From Bacteroidales bacterium (GTDB taxonomy: Bacteria > Bacteroidota > Bacteroidia > Bacteroidales > VadinHA17): a stretch of 64,000 nt of DNA. The notes under the pieces are model-generated. The model was given only the letters and a program-made list of their open reading frames with translations. It did no database searches and had not been told where the DNA came from. A program made the translations under genes and the position numbers. Positions 1 through 12,628 of this stretch are shown piece by piece; within the stretch, counting starts at the first letter, position 1; the number at the start of each line of letters is the position of its first letter. The DNA lies in contig JAOZPG010000008.1 of assembly GCA_029932855.1 (NCBI GenBank), forward strand, positions 25,332 through 89,331, given 5' to 3'.

Positions 1-1449
1 TCGGTAACCGGCGATGTGTCAGGAGATGCTATCATTCTTGCTGCACAGGGTGGAGCAGGAAGCACACATATACTTCGCTGGGTTGTAACCGGTGGTGTTG
101 CGGCACCTGCAGAACTACTTACACTGGCAGATATTACTTCTATGGAGAATTCTCCTAATGTTGTCCCATTCAGTGTCAGTACCGATGCAAATATGCTTAT
201 TTCTGGTAAGGGATTTGCTCCCACAATTATTGATAAGGATCTTAACACTGTTGCAGGCATTCCAAGAATTGATGATTACGGTGGACTTGGTGTTCAGGCG
301 AATTCGCCAAATGTCTTTTACCATAAAGGACGTACCCTGGCTGCCTTCTTCCAGGCACAGAGAGTACCCTCCGTGGGTGTAAGGATAGTAGTAGCCGATA
401 TCACCGAAGAACCATTCCAGGTTGTTGATTCATCGGAGTATGTATCAAGCTATACAGGATGGGACCATTATCTTGGTGAAGTACAGGTAACTACCGATAA
501 TGATTATTATTATGCTTATGTTCTGGCACCAAGGCATGCTATTGCAGCATACAAAGGAGAACTAAATGCCCCTGAGTTTGTATCGGGTATCACAAATCAT
601 ACAGGTGATACTGTGATGGTTGATTTTACCATGGCAATGAAAGCTATTGAAACAACAGATGCTGCACCCTGGACACTTACTTCAGGTGGTAGTGTATTAA
701 CGGTTGATTCTATCTTTAACATGGGAAGTGCATTATACTTCACCGGTCTTTCAACTGCTGTTGCCGAGGGTGATGCTGTTACAATAGCTTATGATGGGAC
801 TGGAAGCATTGCTGCATTTACCGGAATGCCTCTTGCTGCATTTGGCCCGTCAGATATTGAGAATATTGTAGGTGCAGAAGTACCTGTTGCTAGCGATGTT
901 GCTATTACAGGCGATCCTTATCCAACATCTGTATTGACAGGAGCTTATACTTTCACTGATCCTGACGGAGACCTTGAAGGGACCAGCATATATCAATGGT
1001 ATGAAGCAACAGATGATGCAGGTGCTAACGAGTTAAAGCTGCTTGGTGAAACTGGTGTAACTTATACTGTTGATGCCAGCATGACTGGTAAATACCTTGC
1101 CTTTGAAGTAACTCCGGTTTCTGCTACAGGCGGAGCTGATTACCTTGAAGGAGTGCCGGTTAAGTCAGTTTATATCCTGGTTAATCCTACCGGTATTGAT
1201 GATGATATGTTTGCCGGACTTGTTGTTTATCCTAACCCGGTTGTTAATACACTAACTATCGATAACTGTAATGATGTTCAAACAATAAGTATCATGAATG
1301 TTACAGGTAAGGTAATACAAACTATGGATACCAATTTCGAAAGCAGGCTAAGTATAAAGATGGGAGCTTATGAAAATGGTATTTACTTCCTGAAACTTAA
1401 TGCAGAGGATGGCTCAACAAGGGTTATCAGAATAGTAAAGGTTGATTAA
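1..1449 (+). CDS. Secreted multidomain protein with T9SS C-terminal sorting domain (5' partial)
   Basis: The reading frame is open from the first base of the window, so the N-terminus is missing; the GTG at 16 is an internal codon rather than a convincing start. About 482 residues are visible. The middle part (roughly residues 195-285) resembles a SwmB/Big-type Ig-like repeat, followed by a second Ig-like repeat (about 300-390) with the DPDGDLEG and YQWYEA signatures of bacterial surface repeat domains. The last 75 residues form a T9SS sorting domain: VVYPNPVVNTL, a central IMNVTGKV and a terminal NGIYFLKL strand. I infer an extracellular or surface-anchored protein exported through the outer membrane by the type IX system. 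No catalytic motif is visible, and the function is unknown. An intrinsic terminator follows, so it probably ends its own transcript. Confidence 0.75.
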   Translation, partial: SVTGDVSGDAIILAAQGGAGSTHILRWVVTGGVAAPAELLTLADITSMENSPNVVPFSVSTDANMLISGKGFAPTIIDKDLNTVAGIPRIDDYGGLGVQANSPNVFYHKGRTLAAFFQAQRVPSVGVRIVVADITEEPFQVVDSSEYVSSYTGWDHYLGEVQVTTDNDYYYAYVLAPRHAIAAYKGELNAPEFVSGITNHTGDTVMVDFTMAMKAIETTDAAPWTLTSGGSVLTVDSIFNMGSALYFTGLSTAVAEGDAVTIAYDGTGSIAAFTGMPLAAFGPSDIENIVGAEVPVASDVAITGDPYPTSVLTGAYTFTDPDGDLEGTSIYQWYEATDDAGANELKLLGETGVTYTVDASMTGKYLAFEVTPVSATGGADYLEGVPVKSVYILVNPTGIDDDMFAGLVVYPNPVVNTLTIDNCNDVQTISIMNVTGKVIQTMDTNFESRLSIKMGAYENGIYFLKLNAEDGSTRVIRIVKVD

Positions 1450-1540: not shown

Positions 1541-2353
1541 GTGAAAAAAATATTATACTTCGTTGTTTTTACTTTACTTGCTGTTCCGTCTTATACACAA
1601 AGTTTAAAAGTCCGAAAACAAAAAAAACTTGCTCTGAGTCATGAAGCATGGTTTCCTTCATTCGGTAGTAATAGCCGGGAAGTACTGTTAACAGGCAAAA
1701 ATTATAAAGGACTTAGCCTGTATAATACCCGTACGAGGAAAGAAATTAAAATATCAGATGAACCGGGTGCCGGCTACAATGTTGTTGTTAAAAGCAATGA
1801 TGAGATCGTTTACAGAATCACAAGAGGGAGCAGAGGCAAGAGGGCAACTGAATATAAAACATACAGCAAAACTACTAATAGTAATGTTGTTACAAAAAGC
1901 AGCTTTGTACAAGATTTGCAGATCAAAGTAAATGGTAAGCAATTAGAACTAATTAAACCAGGTGAGGATATTAAAATATTAAAGCCTTTTGATGACAGGT
2001 ACTATGTATGGGTAAGCCTGTCACCGGATAATAAAAAAATTCTGTTTACCACAGTGGGAAAAGGAACCTACGTTTCCGACCTTGAAGGGAATGTCATTGC
2101 TGAGCTTGGTTACCTTAATGCACCTTCATGGATCAATAATCAATGGGTGCTTGGAATGGATGATAAAGATGACGGACATAATATCATTTCTTCAAAAATA
2201 CTTGCCCTTCATATTCCATCCGGGAAAAAGCAAATAATATCAGGAGGGAAGAATGAAATTGCAATGTATCCCAGGTCTTCTTTAAAAGGAGACAGAATAG
2301 TGTTTCATAACCAAAAAGGAGAGATTATTATAGTTAAGATAAGGATAAGGTAA
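1541..2353 (+). CDS. Exported beta-propeller-like (TolB/PD40-type) protein
   Basis: GTG start at 1541, 270 aa, chosen because it opens directly on a signal peptide (MKKILYFVVFTLLAVPSYTQ). The mature part has several short repeats of the TolB/WD40-like PD40 type, for example WFPSFGSNSREVLLTG, WVSLSPDNKKILFTT and PRSSLKGDRIVFHNQ, each a beta-strand set ending in an aspartate/asparagine-rich turn. This suggests a small periplasmic or surface beta-propeller that binds a protein or ligand, without visible catalytic residues. The stop codon is one base from the ATG of the amidase gene, so the two are almost certainly co-transcribed and the propeller may assist cell-wall recognition. The specific function is not known. 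Confidence 0.65.
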   Translation: MKKILYFVVFTLLAVPSYTQSLKVRKQKKLALSHEAWFPSFGSNSREVLLTGKNYKGLSLYNTRTRKEIKISDEPGAGYNVVVKSNDEIVYRITRGSRGKRATEYKTYSKTTNSNVVTKSSFVQDLQIKVNGKQLELIKPGEDIKILKPFDDRYYVWVSLSPDNKKILFTTVGKGTYVSDLEGNVIAELGYLNAPSWINNQWVLGMDDKDDGHNIISSKILALHIPSGKKQIISGGKNEIAMYPRSSLKGDRIVFHNQKGEIIIVKIRIR

Positions 2354-2354
2354 A

Positions 2355-4733
2355 ATGGAAAATAATTTATTTAGGCTCAAATATTTAGTGATAATAGCAT
2401 TACTTGGGTTTACCGTAGTACTGGGGGCACAGACCCCCGACTTTAGCGGGTTAAAAGTATGTATAGATCCGGGGCATGGTGGACACGAAGCAGATGACAG
2501 GGGCCCTTTTGACGGTTTCTGGGAATCTGAGAGTAACCTGACAAAAGGACTATGGCTGCGTGATCTTTTAGAAGCAAGGGGTGCGACGGTTTTTATAACA
2601 CGAACAGGCAACGATGGTATTCTGGATGATCCTTCCCTCTCACAGAGAAAAGCCATGGCCAACAACAATAATGTTCACCTTTTTATATCAATTCATTCAA
2701 ATGCTGGTAACCAGTCCATTAGTTATCCAATGACTATTTTTAACGGCCATAGTGATAGTCCAACCATCCCTGATGCCAAGGTATGGGCACAAATTCTTTG
2801 GGAGCACCTGAAAAGCAATGAAGCTACACACTTTACATCTCAGGGATACATTATCGGCGACCTGACACTTAACCCTTCATGGAATTGTGGTTATGGAGTA
2901 TTATGCGGTAATATAACACCCAGCATTATTTCAGAGGGCAGTATGCACGATTATAAACCCGAGCTGCACAGGTTGTTGAGCCTTGATTACAGGAGGGCAG
3001 AGGCATACCAGATGCTTTATGCCATGGAGGAGTATTTCGGATTACCGGGGCAGGAAGCCTATGGTAATATATCGGGTATTGTACGCGATTCACTCCTTGT
3101 TAAGGATAATATGCCTGTTTCAGCCGATATGTACAATGTAGTAAGCGGAACCCGTGTTGAATTGCAGGAAACAGGGGAGCTTTACTATATCGACTCAATT
3201 GAGATTGATCCTCTGGCTGAAGTGAAAAATACGGGTTTTTATATGTTCGATAGCCTGGTGCCAGGCACTTACCATCTTATTTTCTCAGCAGAAGATTATT
3301 ATTCAGACACTGTTGAAGTTAGTGTAAATGCCAACAGTTTTACTTATCATAACAACTGGCAAAGGGCTGATAAATCAATGGCTCCAAAGATCATTTCCCA
3401 TAGTCCTGCCGATGGAGAAACGGTTAAATGTAACGACCCTGTTGAATTTACTTTCAGCATGAACATGGATGCTGCTTCTTTCGATACAGCCTTTTCAATT
3501 ACGCCTGAAATAGAAGGGACAATCAGTTGGGATGAGGACTTTCTTAATGCTAGTTTTCAGCCGGATATCCCTTATGATATCAACACAGAGTATACTGTTA
3601 TAATAGATACCTCTGCTGCCCATCAGTGGGGAGTGTACCTGGATACAAGCCTGACTTTTAGTTTTACAACAGACAGCAGGAATCGTTACCTGCTTGAAAG
3701 CAGCTTCCCGGCAGAAGGTCAGAACGACATCAGCCCCTACCTGCAGTTCAGGCTTATTTTTGAAACAACAATAAGTAATAGCTCCCTGATAAATGCAGTA
3801 AGCATTATAAAGGAAGATGGAAGTGAAATATTTACAAAAGGAGCTAAAATAACAACTATTGATGGGAAAGGACATTATTATTTCGAGGCAGCCGGGGATC
3901 TTGAGTATAATACTAATTATACATTACAATTACTTGGTTCAATTAAAGATGTGGATAATATTCCACTTGTTGACACGGTAAAGATACCATTTACAACCGG
4001 AGAGGATCCCGGTATTTTGACGATACTGGATGAATTTGATAATATCAATAACTGGAACATAAATACCGGTGAGAGTACCGGCCTGGATGGCAGTTCATTC
4101 CTGTACCGGTGGACAAAAACCTATAGGTCGGGTTCTGCATCAACCTTACTAAGGTATAAGTTCAATACCGAAAATGCTATATGCATTGTTAATCCGGTAA
4201 ATCCTATAAGCCTGGCTTCTGATCTTGAGGATATTGGGATATGGGTATGGGGAGAGATGAGTGATAATTATATAAGCATAGGTTTTGACAATGGCACTGA
4301 AGTAAGACTTGATACAATTGATTTTGCAGGCTGGAATTACATTAAAGCAGATATCCCGGATGGAGCGGCCGCAATTAGTTACTATAAAGTTGAAAGAATA
4401 TCTGCTATTGGTGCAGATGGAGGAGATCTTTTGTTTGATGGTTTGAGTCAGCCTGGAGTAACTGCTATCCATGGTGTAAGTCAGGATATGAATATTAGGG
4501 TATTCCCAAATCCGGTAAATGGCTCAGAGTTGAAAATAAAAGGCCTGCCTGATGGAGAATCTTCCTATAAGATTTATAGCATAAGCGGTTACAAAATGCA
4601 GGAAGGGATAATAATGGATGGTTCTCCAGTCTTACATCTCAATAAAAATGTTAAAGCCCAATCTGTCTTTATCCTAAATATTACGAATAAGCAAAATAGT
4701 ATTTCCCTAATATTAACTAATTGGCCTGATTAG
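2355..4733 (+). CDS. Secreted N-acetylmuramoyl-L-alanine amidase (Amidase_3) with T9SS sorting domain
   Basis: 792 aa. Signal peptide (residues 1-25), then an Amidase_3 domain (about 33-228) that hydrolyses the amide between MurNAc and L-Ala of peptidoglycan. Zinc-site residues are visible: H41 in DPGHGGH, a glutamate at 57 or 59, H114 in SIHSN, and catalytic E194 in ISEGSMHDY. After it come a carboxypeptidase-regulatory/CnaB-like domain (about 238-335), two Big_5-type Ig domains (about 340-545), a jelly-roll-like segment (about 555-695) and a T9SS sorting tail (RVFPNPVNGSELKIKG onward). Typical cell-division amidases of this family are far shorter and periplasmic; the T9SS tail predicts surface or extracellular location, so foreign or shed peptidoglycan is a likely substrate. 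It is followed 30 bp later by SusC and is probably in the same operon. Confidence 0.85.
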   Translation: MENNLFRLKYLVIIALLGFTVVLGAQTPDFSGLKVCIDPGHGGHEADDRGPFDGFWESESNLTKGLWLRDLLEARGATVFITRTGNDGILDDPSLSQRKAMANNNNVHLFISIHSNAGNQSISYPMTIFNGHSDSPTIPDAKVWAQILWEHLKSNEATHFTSQGYIIGDLTLNPSWNCGYGVLCGNITPSIISEGSMHDYKPELHRLLSLDYRRAEAYQMLYAMEEYFGLPGQEAYGNISGIVRDSLLVKDNMPVSADMYNVVSGTRVELQETGELYYIDSIEIDPLAEVKNTGFYMFDSLVPGTYHLIFSAEDYYSDTVEVSVNANSFTYHNNWQRADKSMAPKIISHSPADGETVKCNDPVEFTFSMNMDAASFDTAFSITPEIEGTISWDEDFLNASFQPDIPYDINTEYTVIIDTSAAHQWGVYLDTSLTFSFTTDSRNRYLLESSFPAEGQNDISPYLQFRLIFETTISNSSLINAVSIIKEDGSEIFTKGAKITTIDGKGHYYFEAAGDLEYNTNYTLQLLGSIKDVDNIPLVDTVKIPFTTGEDPGILTILDEFDNINNWNINTGESTGLDGSSFLYRWTKTYRSGSASTLLRYKFNTENAICIVNPVNPISLASDLEDIGIWVWGEMSDNYISIGFDNGTEVRLDTIDFAGWNYIKADIPDGAAAISYYKVERISAIGADGGDLLFDGLSQPGVTAIHGVSQDMNIRVFPNPVNGSELKIKGLPDGESSYKIYSISGYKMQEGIIMDGSPVLHLNKNVKAQSVFILNITNKQNSISLILTNWPD

Positions 4734-4763
4734 CTAACAACTCCCAATAAAAAATCTTAGCAT

Positions 4764-7700
4764 ATGAATAAAATAATATTAACTCTCATTATGTTGTCTG
4801 TTACAGCAATGCTGTATGGGCAACAGAGGACGGTTACCGGGAAAGTAGTGGATGAGCAGGGTGAGGCATTAATGTATGCCACAGTGGTTGTTCAATCTAA
4901 AACCGGAGCTTCGCAAATTGGAATAACAACGGATCTGGACGGGAATTTTACATTGAATGTTCCTGAAGGATCAAACACCCTTCTCGCTTCATACATAGGA
5001 TATGAAAGTAAAACAGTAGATATTACAGGTCTTGATGAAATTAAGATTGTATTGAGGATGTCCTCTGTGCAGCTGGAAGATGTGGTAGTTACTGCTCTTG
5101 GGATAAAAAAGGAGAAAAAAGCATTAGGATATTCTTTTTCCGATGTTAAGGGAGATGAGCTTACCACTAACCGGGATGTGAATTTTATCAATTCCATAAG
5201 CAATAAAGTTGCAGGGGTAAATATTACTCAAACTGCCGGTGGTGCCGGTACCTCATCAAGAATTATTATACGGGGTATAAAATCACTCTCCACAGAAAGT
5301 CAGCCGCTAATTGTGGTTGATGGTGTTCCGCTTGATAATTCTTCGGATGGCGCAAGCTGGCTGGGGGGTGTGGACTATGGGAACAGTTTGATGGGTATTT
5401 CTCCGGATGATATTGAGACTATGTCTATCCTGAAAGGGCCTAATGCTGCTGCCCTGTATGGTTCAAGAGCAGCTACGGGAGTGATTCTTATTACTACTAA
5501 AAGCGCATCGGAGAAAGACCGGTTGAAGGTAACGGTAAATACAAACCTAATGATCGACCGGGCTTACATTCTTGCTGATTATCAAAATAAATATGGTGCC
5601 GGTTTTGGAGGGCGTATTCAGTACCAGGCACTTACCGAAAAGCAGCAGGAAGAACATGGTCGTGATTCTGCATACTTTGCTTATGGTCCCGGTAGCTGGG
5701 GGCCCGAACTGGATGGAAGCAGGGAAGTATTGAACTGGAATAATAAATTTACTTACCTGGAACCACAGCCTGATAATGTAAAGGACTACTTTGAAACCGG
5801 GTATACCCTGACTAATTCTGTTGCCCTGGAGAATGGAAATGAAGACCTGAACTGGCGATTTTCTGCAGGATCACTTAATAACAGTGGACTGAAACCTAAT
5901 AGTACATATGACAGGAAGAATGTTAATTTTAATATTAACGCAAAGCTGAATGATGTTTTCGGCTTTAGCTTTAAAGCTAATTATATACGTGAGGATGCTT
6001 TTAACAGAGTTGGGCAGGGAGACTCGCGAACAGGTGCAAGAACCTTTATATGGATGCCCAGGAGCATTAATATCAACACATTGAAAGATGATCGTATGGG
6101 AAGCAATGGCAACGAACAAAATTGGTACTTTTCTGATTCATGGCATACCAATCCATATTGGGAAGCCTATGAAAATTACAATAATGATCGCAAAGACCAG
6201 TTTATCGGTTTTGCGAAAGTTGATATAAACATTACCCCATGGCTGAGAGGATTTGTTAGAACCAGCATGGATACTTACTTATCGAAAAGATTTTTAAGAA
6301 TTGCCAACAATGCCCTGAGAGCCAATGGGAAAGGTTCGTATACTGAACGATGGGTGAATTACAGGTCACTGAATCATGACTTTCTGCTGACAGCTGATAA
6401 ATCATTCGGAGATGACTGGAGCATAAATGTAAATGCCGGGGGGAATTATTATAATTACTTTGTTGATTATCAATCTACAACTATTCCGGGTCTGGCAGTC
6501 CCCAATTATTTTTCACTTAATAATCCGAAATATCCTGCAGAAACCTCTGTGGGTTCCTCCAGGCGTGAAAAAGTTATTCAATCGGTTTATGGATCAGCCC
6601 AGTTGGTTTACAGATCATGGTTATATATGGAAATGACAGCACGTAATGACTGGTCTTCCAGCTTGCCGATAGACAATAATTCGTATTTTTATCCATCTGT
6701 CAATACAAGTTTTGTTTTTACAAAAGCCCTTGGAATAGATAAGAAGTATTTGAGTTTTGGTAAGATCAGGTTCTCTTATGCATATGTTGGGAATGATACC
6801 TCTCCTCATATGCTATCCTATGAATTTATCAATCAGAAATACGGGGACGTTCCTGCTGTATTTTTGAGTAACAGTGGATTTAATCCTGACCTGAAACCGG
6901 AAAGGACAGGTTCGTGGGAAATAGGGACTGACCTGCGGTTTTTTATGAACCGCCTGAACTTAGATATGACCTACTATAATGAAACAACTTTTGATCAAAT
7001 TGTAACGGCAGAAATTTGTAAAGCTTCAGGCTTCAGTCATATCCTTACAAATGGCGGAGAAATCTCGAACAAAGGAATTGAGATACAGTTAAGTGGTATC
7101 CCTATTCAAAGGGATGATTTTAACTGGGATATTAGTCTGAACTTTGCTAAAAACAAAAATGAAGTAGTATCACTGCTTGGCGGACTATCGCAATTGACGA
7201 TCACAAATACAAGTCAAATTGATATTGTTGCAATACCTGGTCGTCCATATGGAGAAATTATAGGAACCCGCTACAAGCGTTATTCCGGGAGTAAGGAAGA
7301 TCCCAATAATGGTCGTGCCCTGATAAGTGAAGATGGATATTATATCCTTGAAGAGCGTGGTGTTATAGGAAATATTACCCCGGACTGGGCAGGTGGTATA
7401 AGCAATAATCTTCGTTACAAGAACCTTTCACTCGCTTTTTCTGTAGGTTTTCAGATAGGTGGTGATATATTCTCAAAAACCAATAAATACGGATCAGATA
7501 ACGGGCAATTTGTTGAAACGCTTGAAGGACGTGAGTCGTGGTACAACGCTACTGAAGAAGAAAAACTGGCAGGCACAGTTGGTATGGTTGCAGATGGAGT
7601 GCTGGCAGATGGTAGTGAAAACACTCGTGGCATTGATCCCCAGTTTTACTGGCACCAGCATAAATGGGGAGGGATAGCCGAACTGGATATTTATGATGCA

Positions 7701-7943
7701 TCTTATATAAAGTTAAGGGATGTGACTCTTAACTACAACCTGCCTTCACATTGGTTCGAAAATAATATCATCAGCCGTATGTCACTGTCACTTGTCGGTA
7801 AGAACCTGTGGTTAATATATAGTGGTGTACCAAATATTGATCCTGAGTCTTCTTTTACTTCAAATAACAATGGTCTCGGACAGGAGTATGCAGCAATGCC
7901 TCCTACCCGCTCCCTTGGATTTAACCTGAGAATTGAGTTCTAA
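4764..7943 (+). CDS. SusC/RagA-family TonB-dependent outer-membrane transporter
   Basis: 1059 aa. Signal peptide (MNKIILTLIMLSVTAMLYGQ), carboxypeptidase-D-regulatory-like domain (about 22-95), then the plug with the SusC-family signature (RIIIRGIKSL and QPLIVVDGVPLDN) and a long beta-barrel ending in an aromatic residue (SLGFNLRIEF). SusC proteins import oligosaccharides, glycopeptides or peptides across the outer membrane with TonB-ExbBD energy and are capped by the SusD lipoprotein, which is encoded immediately downstream. The substrate cannot be read from the sequence. The flanking amidase and GHL10 glycosidase suggest cell-wall fragments. Confidence 0.93.
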   Translation: MNKIILTLIMLSVTAMLYGQQRTVTGKVVDEQGEALMYATVVVQSKTGASQIGITTDLDGNFTLNVPEGSNTLLASYIGYESKTVDITGLDEIKIVLRMSSVQLEDVVVTALGIKKEKKALGYSFSDVKGDELTTNRDVNFINSISNKVAGVNITQTAGGAGTSSRIIIRGIKSLSTESQPLIVVDGVPLDNSSDGASWLGGVDYGNSLMGISPDDIETMSILKGPNAAALYGSRAATGVILITTKSASEKDRLKVTVNTNLMIDRAYILADYQNKYGAGFGGRIQYQALTEKQQEEHGRDSAYFAYGPGSWGPELDGSREVLNWNNKFTYLEPQPDNVKDYFETGYTLTNSVALENGNEDLNWRFSAGSLNNSGLKPNSTYDRKNVNFNINAKLNDVFGFSFKANYIREDAFNRVGQGDSRTGARTFIWMPRSININTLKDDRMGSNGNEQNWYFSDSWHTNPYWEAYENYNNDRKDQFIGFAKVDINITPWLRGFVRTSMDTYLSKRFLRIANNALRANGKGSYTERWVNYRSLNHDFLLTADKSFGDDWSINVNAGGNYYNYFVDYQSTTIPGLAVPNYFSLNNPKYPAETSVGSSRREKVIQSVYGSAQLVYRSWLYMEMTARNDWSSSLPIDNNSYFYPSVNTSFVFTKALGIDKKYLSFGKIRFSYAYVGNDTSPHMLSYEFINQKYGDVPAVFLSNSGFNPDLKPERTGSWEIGTDLRFFMNRLNLDMTYYNETTFDQIVTAEICKASGFSHILTNGGEISNKGIEIQLSGIPIQRDDFNWDISLNFAKNKNEVVSLLGGLSQLTITNTSQIDIVAIPGRPYGEIIGTRYKRYSGSKEDPNNGRALISEDGYYILEERGVIGNITPDWAGGISNNLRYKNLSLAFSVGFQIGGDIFSKTNKYGSDNGQFVETLEGRESWYNATEEEKLAGTVGMVADGVLADGSENTRGIDPQFYWHQHKWGGIAELDIYDASYIKLRDVTLNYNLPSHWFENNIISRMSLSLVGKNLWLIYSGVPNIDPESSFTSNNNGLGQEYAAMPPTRSLGFNLRIEF

Positions 7944-7959
7944 TAGAAATTATAATATT

Positions 7960-9525
7960 ATGAAACGAAAATATATATTTATTATCCTCATGTCAGGTGT
8001 AATCCTGTTTTCTTGTACCAAGAAATTTGAGGAGATCAATACCAATCCAAACAATCCATCAACAAGTGATGAGAATTACATCTTCAACTATATTATTAAG
8101 GAAGGAGCCGGAGAATATGGTGGGTCCGGCCAGGGCCGGATATATTCAAATTATAACTATAGCTATGTTCAGCGCTGGATAATGCAAACAGCTGCAGTAT
8201 GGGGGAATTCAACAATGCCTCCTTATACCTTGTTTGACCAGTACAGGATACAGAATCTATGGCAATATTTTTATTCAAGTCTGTTATTAAATTGCACTAT
8301 CCTGGAAAAAGTAACAGCAGATAATCCTGATGATATTAATAAATACGAGGTGGCACGAATATGGAAAACCTATTGTTTCCACAGGGTTACTGATTTATGG
8401 GGCGATGTGCCTTATTCTGAAGCCTTTCAGTTGCTTGATGACTATAACTCAGGGAGTATTACACCTAAATACGACACACAGGAAGAGATATATACAGATA
8501 TGTTGGATGTACTTAAGGATGCTGCTTCATCAATTGACATATCCAAAGGCTTCTATGCCAATGACATGATCTTTGACGGTGACCTTGACCTGTGGATTAA
8601 GTTTGCAAATTCTTTACGATTAAGACTTGCTGTAAGAAGTGGTAACCAGGCAGTTGTTGGGGAGATACTTGCCGAAGGGAACCTTATTTCAGATAATAGT
8701 GAAAGTGCACGATTTACTTACATTGAGGCTCAGGACTGGTGGAATCCTTATTATGAGCTGAATATCAGTTCGAAAAACCCAAGTAACCCTGAGCTTACCG
8801 GAACAACTGTTCCAAAGATCAGTGACCTGATGAAACTGCAATTAGAACTGTCAGATGATCCCAGGCTGGCTATTTATGCACAACCGGTTGAGACCGCTCC
8901 TGATACTTACAGGGGTGTTCCCAACCTGATGGATGCATATAAAAAGGAAAACCAGGCACTGGGAATGGGTGTTTCCAGTACTTCTTATATTGGCCGGTAT
9001 TTTTCAGAAAATCCTGATTATTCAAACCAGATTTTGAGTTACGCCGAAGTTTGCTTCCTGAGGGCTGAAGCTGCACAAAGGACATGGACAGTAGAAGATG
9101 CCCAAACATGGTACGAGGAAGGTGTACGCAGTGCTATGGAATATTATGAGATACCTGATACCAGTATTACCAATTTCCTTACAAACGGAGGAGCGTTTGA
9201 TAACAGCCTGGAACAAATAATTACCCAGAAATGGATTGCTCTCTTTCTGAATGGGTGGGAAGCTTATGCTGAATACAGGAGGACGGGTTTTCCGCAGTTG
9301 AAGAAATACGATATTACTTTAAATGGTATAATAATTGTTAATATTGATACAGTAGATGTACCCAGGAATTATATTCCCGGAAGATTACCTTACCCGGATG
9401 ATGAAGAGGATTTAAATGAAGCTAACTACCTGAAAGCAGTTGATAATCAGGGTGGAGATTATTATAAGCAACAGCTATGGTGGTCAAAGTTATTTGGTAT
9501 AGTTGACTATGATAAGGAATATTAA
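7960..9525 (+). CDS. SusD-like surface lipoprotein (SusD_2 type)
   Basis: 521 aa from the ATG at 7960, which opens directly on a lipoprotein signal peptide with a lipobox ending FSC. An in-frame upstream TTG at 7933 would place nine polar residues before it and overlap the SusC gene. The mature N-terminus carries the family motif FEEINTNPNNPS, and the body has TPR-like helices (for example YAEVCFLRAEAAQR). SusD proteins sit on the SusC barrel and bind glycan or peptide ligand at the cell surface. The gene starts 16 bp after susC and belongs to the same unit. Confidence 0.92.
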   Translation: MKRKYIFIILMSGVILFSCTKKFEEINTNPNNPSTSDENYIFNYIIKEGAGEYGGSGQGRIYSNYNYSYVQRWIMQTAAVWGNSTMPPYTLFDQYRIQNLWQYFYSSLLLNCTILEKVTADNPDDINKYEVARIWKTYCFHRVTDLWGDVPYSEAFQLLDDYNSGSITPKYDTQEEIYTDMLDVLKDAASSIDISKGFYANDMIFDGDLDLWIKFANSLRLRLAVRSGNQAVVGEILAEGNLISDNSESARFTYIEAQDWWNPYYELNISSKNPSNPELTGTTVPKISDLMKLQLELSDDPRLAIYAQPVETAPDTYRGVPNLMDAYKKENQALGMGVSSTSYIGRYFSENPDYSNQILSYAEVCFLRAEAAQRTWTVEDAQTWYEEGVRSAMEYYEIPDTSITNFLTNGGAFDNSLEQIITQKWIALFLNGWEAYAEYRRTGFPQLKKYDITLNGIIIVNIDTVDVPRNYIPGRLPYPDDEEDLNEANYLKAVDNQGGDYYKQQLWWSKLFGIVDYDKEY

Positions 9526-9538
9526 TTTGTTTGATATT

Positions 9539-12500
9539 ATGATACACATCTTTGAGCATAAGTTTAAGCTGTCTTTGCTATTAATATTATTTGTATTTGG
9601 TTTTACCAGCATCAAGGCCCAGGAAGAACCTAAGCGTGAGCTCAGGAGCACCTGGATAGCTACAGTTGGAAACATTGACTGGCCTAAATATGCGGACAGG
9701 AACAATGCTGCTGCACAGCAGGCAGACCTTATAAATATGCTGGATCTTTATAAGGAAAGCAACCTGAATGCTGTATTTCTCCAGGTTAGAACGGAGTGTG
9801 ATGCATTATACCAGTCAGCCTATGAACCATGGTCGAGATATCTTACATGGGCACAGGGAACCGATCCGGGTTATGATCCCTTACAATTTGCTCTTGAAGA
9901 GGCTCATAAAAGAGGGATAGAGATGCATGTCTGGCTAAATCCTTATCGGATTAATGCATCTACCAGTGATGGAGGCAGTTATTACCATTCTACACATATA
10001 TATAAGGAGCATCCCGAATGGGCTATGGTGTATGCTTCGGGAAAGAAAATTCTGAATCCCGGGCGACCGGAAGTGATGTCTTATATTGGGGAAGTTGTCA
10101 GGGATATTGTTTCTAATTATTCAATTGACGGAGTTCATTTTGACGATTACTTCTATTCTTATGATGGGACTCCATCATCACTTGATGCTACGGAATATGC
10201 AGCTTACGGATCAGGAATGACTCTCGGAGACTGGAGAAGGGACAATGTTAACCGGATGATTGATACCGTGTGGGCTGTAATCCAGGAGACAAACCCGGAT
10301 GTAAGATTTGGGGTAAGTCCTTTTGGTATTTATAAAGATGGTGTCCCCCAGGGTATTCATGGCTTAAACGCCTACAGTACAATATATTGTGATCCTCTTG
10401 CCTGGCTTAGGGCAGGAAGTGTAGATTATATTACACCCCAGTTATACTGGCCCACAGGCGGAGGACAGGATTTTGAAACACTGGTAAACTGGTGGGCAGA
10501 TTCCTGTTATCACTATAACCGGCATCTTTATCCCGGTCAGGCAACATACAGGCTTTCTGTTAATCCCGGCTTAAAAGGAAGCATAGGAGAAGACAGCTTA
10601 TTACATGAATCAAAATACTATTTTGATTATCCTCCAACAACAGATAACCTATCAAATCTTGAGTCAGCCAGCCTTAAAGGAACAGGTGATCCGGTTGCAG
10701 CATGGACACTGGGACAAATTGGTTTGCAGATAGATTTAATTCGTTCTAATAAGGATAAAAATGGTTTGGGGAGTGTGTTTTTTAGTGCAAAAGATTTTGT
10801 TCGTGTACAAGACCTTGCGGATTATCTTACAGAAAAGAAATATACACATTCGGCGATTATTCCTGAAATGACATGGAAAACGGGTTCAACGCCAACTGCA
10901 CCTCAAAATTTAAGAGTTGAGATTATTGATAATAAATATACTCTGGTTTGGGATTATACCTTGAATTTAAATGATAGATTTGCTGTTTATTCAACCAGTG
11001 ACGACCTGACTCCCAATGAGATAATAAATGATCCCGGCAAGCTTCAGGGCATTAGCTTTGAACCCTTAATTTCACTTTCTGATCTTGTAATTTCAGAGAA
11101 CTCTTACATTGTTGTAACAACAGTTTCAGCTATTGGCAAAGAAAGTATACCAAGTTTAAGATATCAGCTGGATAGCAGTATTCCTTTTGTTGACCTGATA
11201 TTACCTGAGGATGGAGATACAATTGCATATGTCGATAGTCTTCTCTGGACATCAGACTTTAGCGATCCGATATACCAGGTACAGCTGGCTGCAAACAGCA
11301 CATTCAGTACTATTGTATATACTTCCGGCTGGATAACTGATACTATCTTTAACATAGAAAGTTTAAACCTTAATGGTGAAACAAATTATTATTGGCGTGT
11401 AAGGGCAAAAGATGGAGCTGAAGGTCCGTATTCAGGAGCAAGATCCTTTTTTACCGGTTTCCCGGCAGTTCCCGGATTAATTTCCCCGGCAAATCTTTCT
11501 CAGAATATTTCAACCAGTCCAAAGATTAAATGGAATGCTACAGTGTCAACGGAAAATATCAGGGTGCTCATCTCAGAATCCAACTCATTTATCCCTCTCG
11601 TTGCGGAAGAAGTTTTTTCGGCAGAGGGAGGAGAAGGAATCCTTTCTACAGAATTAAGTAAAAATACCTGGTATTATTTGAAAATCAATGGAGAAAATGC
11701 TTATGGAGCCAGTGAGTTTACAGCCTCATATGTTTTTAAGACAACTGCAGGTGAAATTCCTGATGTGTCATTAATATCACCTGAAAACAATGCTACAGTA
11801 GCATCTTTTGATATGCTTGACTGGGAAACATCAACTACAACAGGAACCATTAGTTATTATCTTGAAGTAGCCATTGATAATAACTTTTCTTCCATAATGT
11901 ATAATTCAGGCTGGATAAGCCAGGATGAGTTAATGGTATCAGAAACTAATCTGGAGGGTGGCCGGACTTATTACTGGAGGGTGAAAGCGAGAAGTGAATT
12001 TGGAGAGAGTGAATTTAGTAATTCCCGGGCTTTTATTGCGGCTTACCCTTCAAGGCCTTCAATTACTCAGCCTGTACATCTTTCTGATGGTAATAATACA
12101 AGGACAGTGATTGCCTGGATTGCAGATGCAGAAACCGATACGGTTTATATTGAGATTTCAAAAACAGGTAATTATTCTGTTATTGCTCATAGTGAGAAAT
12201 TTGAAGAGGATCCGGGGACAGGGCAATTATCATCTCCACTGGATCCTGAAACCTGGTATTTTATACATTTAAGGGCAGAGAATGAATATGGAGCAGGGGT
12301 GTTCAGTTCCAGTAAGTATTTCAAAACAGGTCTGGCATCAGCTGTGTATGACGGTAATAAACCGGATGCTGAATCAGTTGTGATATTCCCTAATGCTTTA
12401 AGTTCAGGTGAGTTTGTTGTAAGGTTGAAATTAGAGAGTTCAAGAGATATTGAAATCCGTATTTATGATGTTACAGGCAGAAATATTCTTAATATGGAGA

Positions 12501-12628
12501 ACATATCTGCTGAAGCCGGACAGAGTGATATTAGAATTAACAGTGAATTACTTAACGGGCCCGGTTTGTACTACCTGAAGCTTAGATCAGGTGGAAAATT
12601 TGTTGTAAAATCGATTGTTATATATTAG
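9539..12628 (+). CDS. Secreted GHL10 (DUF187/DigH-like) glycoside hydrolase with Fn3-like repeats and T9SS tail
   Basis: 1029 aa from the ATG at 9539, chosen because it precedes the signal peptide ending SIKAQ; the longer frame from 9503 overlaps susD. The catalytic TIM-barrel-like GHL10 domain spans about residues 33-345, with RSTWIATVGNIDWP, NPYRINA, DGVHFDDYFY (198-207), FGVSPFGIY and TPQLYWP; the acidic DD/D residues in the third motif are likely catalytic. Several Fn3-like repeats (about 455-930, each with YYWRV- or WYYLK-type strands) and a T9SS sorting tail follow. The family includes E. coli DigH (YddW), which cleaves peptidoglycan glycans stripped of peptides. Such a substrate is exactly what the amidase encoded upstream would produce. 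Last gene of the locus. Confidence 0.85.
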   Translation: MIHIFEHKFKLSLLLILFVFGFTSIKAQEEPKRELRSTWIATVGNIDWPKYADRNNAAAQQADLINMLDLYKESNLNAVFLQVRTECDALYQSAYEPWSRYLTWAQGTDPGYDPLQFALEEAHKRGIEMHVWLNPYRINASTSDGGSYYHSTHIYKEHPEWAMVYASGKKILNPGRPEVMSYIGEVVRDIVSNYSIDGVHFDDYFYSYDGTPSSLDATEYAAYGSGMTLGDWRRDNVNRMIDTVWAVIQETNPDVRFGVSPFGIYKDGVPQGIHGLNAYSTIYCDPLAWLRAGSVDYITPQLYWPTGGGQDFETLVNWWADSCYHYNRHLYPGQATYRLSVNPGLKGSIGEDSLLHESKYYFDYPPTTDNLSNLESASLKGTGDPVAAWTLGQIGLQIDLIRSNKDKNGLGSVFFSAKDFVRVQDLADYLTEKKYTHSAIIPEMTWKTGSTPTAPQNLRVEIIDNKYTLVWDYTLNLNDRFAVYSTSDDLTPNEIINDPGKLQGISFEPLISLSDLVISENSYIVVTTVSAIGKESIPSLRYQLDSSIPFVDLILPEDGDTIAYVDSLLWTSDFSDPIYQVQLAANSTFSTIVYTSGWITDTIFNIESLNLNGETNYYWRVRAKDGAEGPYSGARSFFTGFPAVPGLISPANLSQNISTSPKIKWNATVSTENIRVLISESNSFIPLVAEEVFSAEGGEGILSTELSKNTWYYLKINGENAYGASEFTASYVFKTTAGEIPDVSLISPENNATVASFDMLDWETSTTTGTISYYLEVAIDNNFSSIMYNSGWISQDELMVSETNLEGGRTYYWRVKARSEFGESEFSNSRAFIAAYPSRPSITQPVHLSDGNNTRTVIAWIADAETDTVYIEISKTGNYSVIAHSEKFEEDPGTGQLSSPLDPETWYFIHLRAENEYGAGVFSSSKYFKTGLASAVYDGNKPDAESVVIFPNALSSGEFVVRLKLESSRDIEIRIYDVTGRNILNMENISAEAGQSDIRINSELLNGPGLYYLKLRSGGKFVVKSIVIY

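Follow-up and report, generated by a model that had tools for sequence, protein, structure and literature searches.

The murQRP-amiE-nagZ-namZ and ykfABCD loci of Bacillus subtilis bring together an amidase, glycosidases and MurQ, and, for murein peptides, an LD-carboxypeptidase, an epimerase and an NlpC/P60 enzyme. Peptidoglycan from dead and living bacteria forms a large pool that is degraded slowly. Uncultured Bacteroidetes dominate anaerobic enrichments with peptidoglycan as the only feed (PMC7511781). Tannerella forsythia, according to the excerpts of the reports on which we draw, lacks murA and murB, needs external N-acetylmuramic acid (MurNAc) and grows on foreign peptidoglycan (PMC5790795, PMC7670621, PMC5388701). 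The genes named for it there comprise a xanthan lyase, glycosyltransferases, lytB, ampG, ybbC/NamZ and murTKQ, with the ampG operon at Tanf_08345-08370 and NamZ1/2 (PMC5388701, PMC5790795, PMC7670621). Herein, we describe a five-gene operon encoding an amidase, a SusC/SusD pair and a GHL10 glycosidase in an uncultured member of the Bacteroidales (VadinHA17; assembly GCA_029932855.1). It lies at positions 1541-12628 of a 64,000-nucleotide stretch of contig JAOZPG010000008.1 (positions 25,332 to 89,331), referred to below as the window.

We consider it reasonably probable that this operon serves to scavenge peptidoglycan at the cell surface and brings its own outer-membrane importer, in a bacterium that is probably unable to synthesize MurNAc. 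The reading is built on the domains and conserved residues of the two enzymes, on their fusions and neighbors in related genomes, and on the absence of MurA and MurB throughout the genus.

Gene order and enzymes of the operon

The five genes are all on the + strand and are separated by gaps of 1, 30, 16 and 13 bp. The first (1541..2353) starts with GTG and encodes a secreted beta-propeller-like protein of 270 amino acids, whose AlphaFold model (pLDDT, the per-residue confidence score, 92.8) matches beta-propellers of the WD40-like type in Foldseek. It is followed by an Amidase_3 protein of 792 amino acids (2355..4733), a SusC/RagA TonB-dependent outer-membrane transporter of 1059 amino acids (4764..7943), a SusD-like surface lipoprotein (7960..9525) and a GHL10 protein (9539..12628). 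For the last two genes the real starts are probably the ATG codons at 7960 and 9539, not the TTG codons further upstream. Amidase, SusC/SusD and GHL10 are present together at this place, as the original prediction had claimed. The five-gene order is kept in the congener G248, with identities of 73, 84, 92, 91 and 80% along the operon, and in two more distant metagenome-assembled genomes, in which amidase identity is 53-54%; this conservation argues that the arrangement is not due to chance.

By domain and residues, the Amidase_3 protein is a predicted N-acetylmuramoyl-L-alanine amidase. Its catalytic domain (residues 35-216) matches PF01520 with 62.7 bits against a cut-off of 27 (E 5.9e-17), and the putative zinc and catalytic residues H41, E57, H114 and E194 are invariant in 16 relatives. 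When modelled, residues 30-231 superpose on 4rn7 with a VIA Z of 24.8 (root-mean-square deviation 2.1, 181 residues aligned), and the fold also matches AmiC, CwlV and Ami1 at Z 22.8-23.8. The catalytic domain is accompanied by two Big_5 domains and by a segment, residues 553-702, that in the model resembles carbohydrate-binding beta-sandwiches (Z ~13.5-14 to modules of a xanthanase and a mannanase).

The GHL10 domain (residues 34-340) matches PF02638 with 226.8 bits against a cut-off of 27.9 (E 4.6e-67), and is followed by Ig/Fn3-like domains and a type A tail of the type IX secretion system (T9SS). The tail exceeds both of its cut-offs (PF18962 Por_Secre_tail, 30.0 vs 27; TIGR04183, 34.9 vs 23). 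The sole solved relative of the domain is Cwp19 (5oq2, E 7e-82), for which the proposed active-site residues are W36, Q77, W127, R132, D195, D196, Y197, S250, Q295 and Y297 (PMC5765458). When the window protein, its relatives, E. coli DigH and Cwp19 were aligned, all of these putative residues were found to be invariant, the window counterparts being W39, Q82, W132, R137, D202, D203, Y204, S260, Q301 and Y303. Overall identity of the domain is 35% to DigH and 45% to Cwp19. E. coli DigH (YddW) hydrolyses denuded glycan (PMC12288456), while Cwp19 of C. difficile has been described as a lytic transglycosylase (PMC6016235).

SusC scores 637.9 bits against a TIGR04056 cut-off of 368, and SusD, which carries an SC lipobox, scores 249.5 bits against a PF12771 cut-off of 27 (E 7.5e-74). 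The adjacent transporter and lipoprotein fit a SusCD-type outer-membrane importer. A SusCD pair related to that of the window is found at L099:9474-19026 (G275:C7), where the genes after it encode two divergent GHL10 proteins, a member of the GlcNAc_2-epim family and a GH31 protein.

Gene order in relatives points to an ancestral propeller-amidase module, often with GHL10, to which SusCD was added in one group. In 77 of 79 loci, drawn from Bacteroidota, Ignavibacteria, Neomarinimicrobiota, Calditrichota and others, the amidase has a relative of the propeller beside it or fused to it, and in all nine loci of the order with full-length relatives, among them the window genome's amidase paralogue, such a propeller relative precedes the amidase or is fused to it. 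GHL10 occurs in 18 of the 79 amidase loci, compared with about 0.8 genes expected by chance if a genome holds 2 such genes per 3.3 Mb and with the loci not independent of each other. SusC and SusD directly after the amidase were seen only in the window, G248, L100 and L133 among the sampled genomes. The cultured relative Mariniphaga anaerophila DSM 26910 (L102), for instance, has GHL10, propeller and amidase together but no SusCD with them. In Paludibacteraceae-type genomes (L144, L146, L152, L159, L161, L162, L172, L173) propeller and amidase form one protein of ~1000 amino acids. NAGPA (PF09992, phosphodiester glycosidase), often T9SS-tailed, lies near propeller-amidase-GHL10 in 24 of the 79 loci (e.g. 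L033, L034, L036, L102, L115, L124). Such neighbors might act on a phosphodiester link in wall polymers such as teichoic acid; this idea was dropped, as no paper showing such a role was found and the window has no NAGPA.

Peptidoglycan-related partners and missing MurA and MurB

Several genomes tie the same genes to peptidoglycan. Within the family of the window genome, GHL10 is fused to both domains of NamZ, an exo-N-acetylmuramidase, in L073 and L067, and the gene after the fusion in L073 encodes an Amidase_3 protein; L068:9755-13879 encodes one protein of 1375 amino acids with GHL10 at its N-terminus and Amidase_3 at its C-terminus. These fusions suggest that the GHL10 enzyme may be specific for peptide-free glycan strands. 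In L100, the order propeller-amidase-SusC-SusD-GHL10 is followed after 9 bp by a 555 amino acid fusion protein. MurQ makes up the C-terminal part of this protein (NF003915, 352.8 bits against a cut-off of 168), and the N-terminal part is similar to the BadF-type kinase encoded after the amidase in G109. BadF-type genes were seen in 15 of 89 amidase loci and in 0 of 17 other loci, a control that is small and non-random. Outside the Bacteroidota, L122 (Neomarinimicrobiota) holds NlpC/P60, an MR_MLE epimerase, two amidases, a propeller, NamZ and GHL10 in one stretch. Together with the invariant putative active-site residues and the salvage genes described next, these links uphold the earlier proposal that the operon is directed at peptidoglycan, a predicted target that we regard as well supported.

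The window genome appears equipped to use what such enzymes would release. Contig C37 carries a cluster of MurU-like, AmgK-like, NagX-like, MurQ, beta-lactamase-like, glycosyltransferase, SpoIID, AmpG-like permease (assigned by eye), NamZ and golvesin/amidase-like genes, and the genome has three NamZ genes in all. A further locus on C28 (L093:5047-14836) comprises NlpC/P60, an MR_MLE epimerase, a second SusC and SusD, an LD-carboxypeptidase of family S66 and an S13 carboxypeptidase, and is likely to serve the use of murein peptides, for which it has an importer of its own. A SusCD-murein-peptide locus of this type was sought beside the SusD of three other genomes and was not found there.

MurA stays below its cut-off in the window genome, G000 (69.5 vs 392.7 bits), and likewise in the congeners G247 and G248, while the same search placed MurA above the cut-off in 52 of 60 genomes. 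No MurB match was obtained in any of the three genomes of the genus, and MurB was found in G249, G255, G271, G112 and the genomes of L100, L133, L102 and L107. The remainder of the pathway is in place: MurC, MurD, MurE, MurF, MurG and MraY all exceed a cut-off in the window genome, and Mur ligases were also found in G247 and G248. We rejected the explanation that MurA was overlooked through divergence, since the search recovers MurA at full length from 52 of the 60 genomes, and in G000 it hits only AroA (359.6 bits vs cut-off 287), encoded between chorismate synthase-like and AroB-like genes. In all three genomes of the genus the MurA search meets just an AroA paralogue, identified as AroA in G000. 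Incomplete assembly is an unlikely cause, since both genes are absent from all three genomes, whose completeness is 96, 89 and 76%. The genus is therefore likely a MurNAc auxotroph like T. forsythia.

A second loss may have occurred in the same family. G264, a more distant species, has neither MurA nor MurB anywhere in its genome. In G271, murB-murA adjoin the amidase and GHL10-NamZ genes; when L074 (G264:C11) was compared with L073:3828-6258, the G264 contig matched G271 on both sides of murB-murA, and the pair itself was replaced by unrelated sequence. At the scar lies a copied stretch of 115 bases from the amidase end. In G264, murB-murA were apparently lost right next to the GHL10-NamZ and amidase genes, and MurNAc dependence may have arisen more than once.

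The surroundings of the operon add a secretion context. Upstream lie two T9SS-tailed proteins, a GcvH-like gene and, about 10 kb away, SprA, which places a T9SS component near the operon. A T9SS-tailed surface protein precedes the operon and is represented in the window by its 3' part (1..1449, + strand; Por_Secre_tail 49 bits), and its equivalents also stand upstream of the operon in G248, L100 and L133. On the 3' side, infB and nusA-like genes lie on the opposite strand.

Proposed route and competing explanations

In the route we propose, the exported Amidase_3 protein, probably T9SS-anchored and bearing its carbohydrate-binding-like module, would strip stem peptides off foreign or dead-cell sacculi. 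The T9SS-anchored GHL10 enzyme would cut the peptide-free glycan in the manner of E. coli DigH, and the SusD-capped SusC would bring the oligosaccharides (or peptides) into the periplasm. NamZ and the AmpG-like permease of C37 would complete the breakdown and move the sugars inside, whereupon MurQ would convert MurNAc-6-P to GlcNAc-6-P (GlcNAc, N-acetylglucosamine) for energy metabolism and the AmgK/MurU-like enzymes would convert MurNAc to UDP-MurNAc. The latter would feed the intact MurC-F pathway, standing in for the missing MurA and MurB, with the flux presumably running from foreign walls to the cell's own. A stronger version, in which the operon is the obligatory MurNAc entry route, SusCD carries glycan-strand fragments and the genus has the walls of other bacteria as the sole source of its own, is held more tentatively; we think it somewhat more apt to be wrong than right.

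Several observations weigh against this scheme. The original prediction gave T9SS tails to both enzymes, a claim that stands for GHL10 and is weaker for the amidase, whose tail reaches only 13.3 bits against the PF18962 cut-off of 27. The PNP motif that opens T9SS tails is invariant in 16 amidase relatives, and the amidase of L133 scores better, at 21.6 bits, yet also below 27; the window amidase possibly retains a degenerate T9SS tail, and a surface location for it may be supposed. The structure matches listed for the amidase model, in which support for the tail was sought, cover mainly residues 30-231, 343-550 and 553-702. The MurU-like and AmgK-like calls are below their NCBIfam cut-offs (133 vs 250 and 65.8 vs 550 bits, respectively). 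No regulator, whether of the hybrid two-component system (HTCS) or extracytoplasmic function (ECF) type or any other, was seen beside the operon. Finally, MurB is retained in the genomes behind L100 and L133; the operon is thus not tied to auxotrophy, having come before the loss of MurA and MurB or independently of it.

The weakest link of the mechanism is the specificity of SusCD, and it is here that the scheme meets its main competitor, according to which amidase, propeller and GHL10 degrade peptidoglycan, SusCD imports only stem peptides or something unrelated, and MurNAc enters by another route. Among solved proteins, SusC is closest to BT_2264, by a wide margin (413 bits, with RagA at 184). 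The BT_2264 complex carries peptide ligands. Amidase-propeller-GHL10 clusters are mostly without SusCD, which is attached in only four sampled genomes, and the nearest sampled relative of the window SusD belongs to a locus with GH31 and GlcNAc_2-epim rather than to a peptidoglycan locus. Set against this, the L100 operon runs into the kinase-like/MurQ gene, a link to sugar metabolism that favors peptidoglycan-fragment import by the operon SusCD, and the murein-peptide enzymes of C28 already come with a SusCD pair of their own. In a SusD tree, the window type stands apart from the C28 SusD of the same genome. Transfer of a substrate from this phylogeny found no support, the window clade not grouping with the murein-peptide SusD, and our literature search found no paper on SusCD importing peptidoglycan. 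We judge restriction to peptides or an unrelated import substrate to be unlikely, though a serious contender, and tentatively favor import of peptidoglycan fragments through the window SusCD.

Two further explanations dispute the target or the direction. E. coli DigH and amidases are active at the septum (PMC12288456), and the propeller partner, with its plain signal peptide, may reside in the periplasm; the operon could on these grounds serve to remodel or turn over the wall of the cell itself, as in septum splitting. However, the GHL10 tail would place that enzyme outside the outer membrane, away from the own sacculus, the operon includes SusCD and, in L100, MurQ, and the small Amidase_3 (C33) and short GHL10 (C44) encoded separately in the window genome could serve the own wall. 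We therefore consider this explanation improbable, in agreement with the earlier preference for an uptake route over cell-division remodelling. Less probable again is that GHL10 and SusCD act on another polysaccharide, with the amidase an unrelated neighbor. A distant GHL10 protein, DogH, has been reported to hydrolyse starch, releasing maltose (PMC9967864). The closest solved relatives of SusD are glucan-binding proteins (mixed-linkage glucan), which differs from the BT_2264 pointer of SusC, and the sampled protein nearest to this SusD is encoded next to divergent GHL10 genes and GH31. This idea has to contend with the fusions of GHL10 to NamZ and to Amidase_3 within the family, with the recurrence of the GHL10/propeller/amidase cluster in several phyla, and with a catalytic domain that is 40-48% identical to peptidoglycan-linked relatives and keeps all putative active-site residues.

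Comparison with described systems

The locus offers a concrete gene set for peptidoglycan breakdown: an exported amidase, a surface enzyme predicted to act on denuded glycan, and an outer-membrane importer. With MurA and MurB lacking across the genus, it could be not just a nutrient locus but a lifeline. If the loss is real, the genus would be a second MurNAc-dependent bacterium, which would explain its resistance to isolation and suggest a simple cultivation recipe, with MurNAc or peptidoglycan added.

DigH and Cwp19 belong to the same family as the window GHL10 and share its putative active-site residues; they are, however, proteins of the envelope or cell wall that serve separation or autolysis, whereas the window protein is T9SS-tailed and encoded in a SusCD operon. 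The polysaccharide utilization loci of Bacteroidota likewise place SusC/SusD beside a surface glycosidase; the window operon differs in that its second exported enzyme is an amidase, and in having no HTCS or ECF regulator seen beside it. The B. subtilis loci follow the same logic, with a ykfABCD-type set comparable to the C28 locus, but have no outer membrane, SusCD or T9SS to work with, and no GHL10 in their operons.

The closest likeness is to T. forsythia, in which, by the excerpts cited above, MurA and MurB are absent as in the window genus. Its ampG-murTKQ region (PMC5388701) is paralleled by C37 with its golvesin/amidase-like, glycosyltransferase, SpoIID, AmpG-like, NamZ and MurQ genes. 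The transporters named in those excerpts are inner-membrane only (AmpG and MurT), with no SusCD among them, and the operon SusCD is thus a candidate for the outer-membrane step not named there for T. forsythia. Relative to that system as so described, the new elements in the window operon are the exported amidase, the GHL10 enzyme at the surface and the dedicated SusCD.

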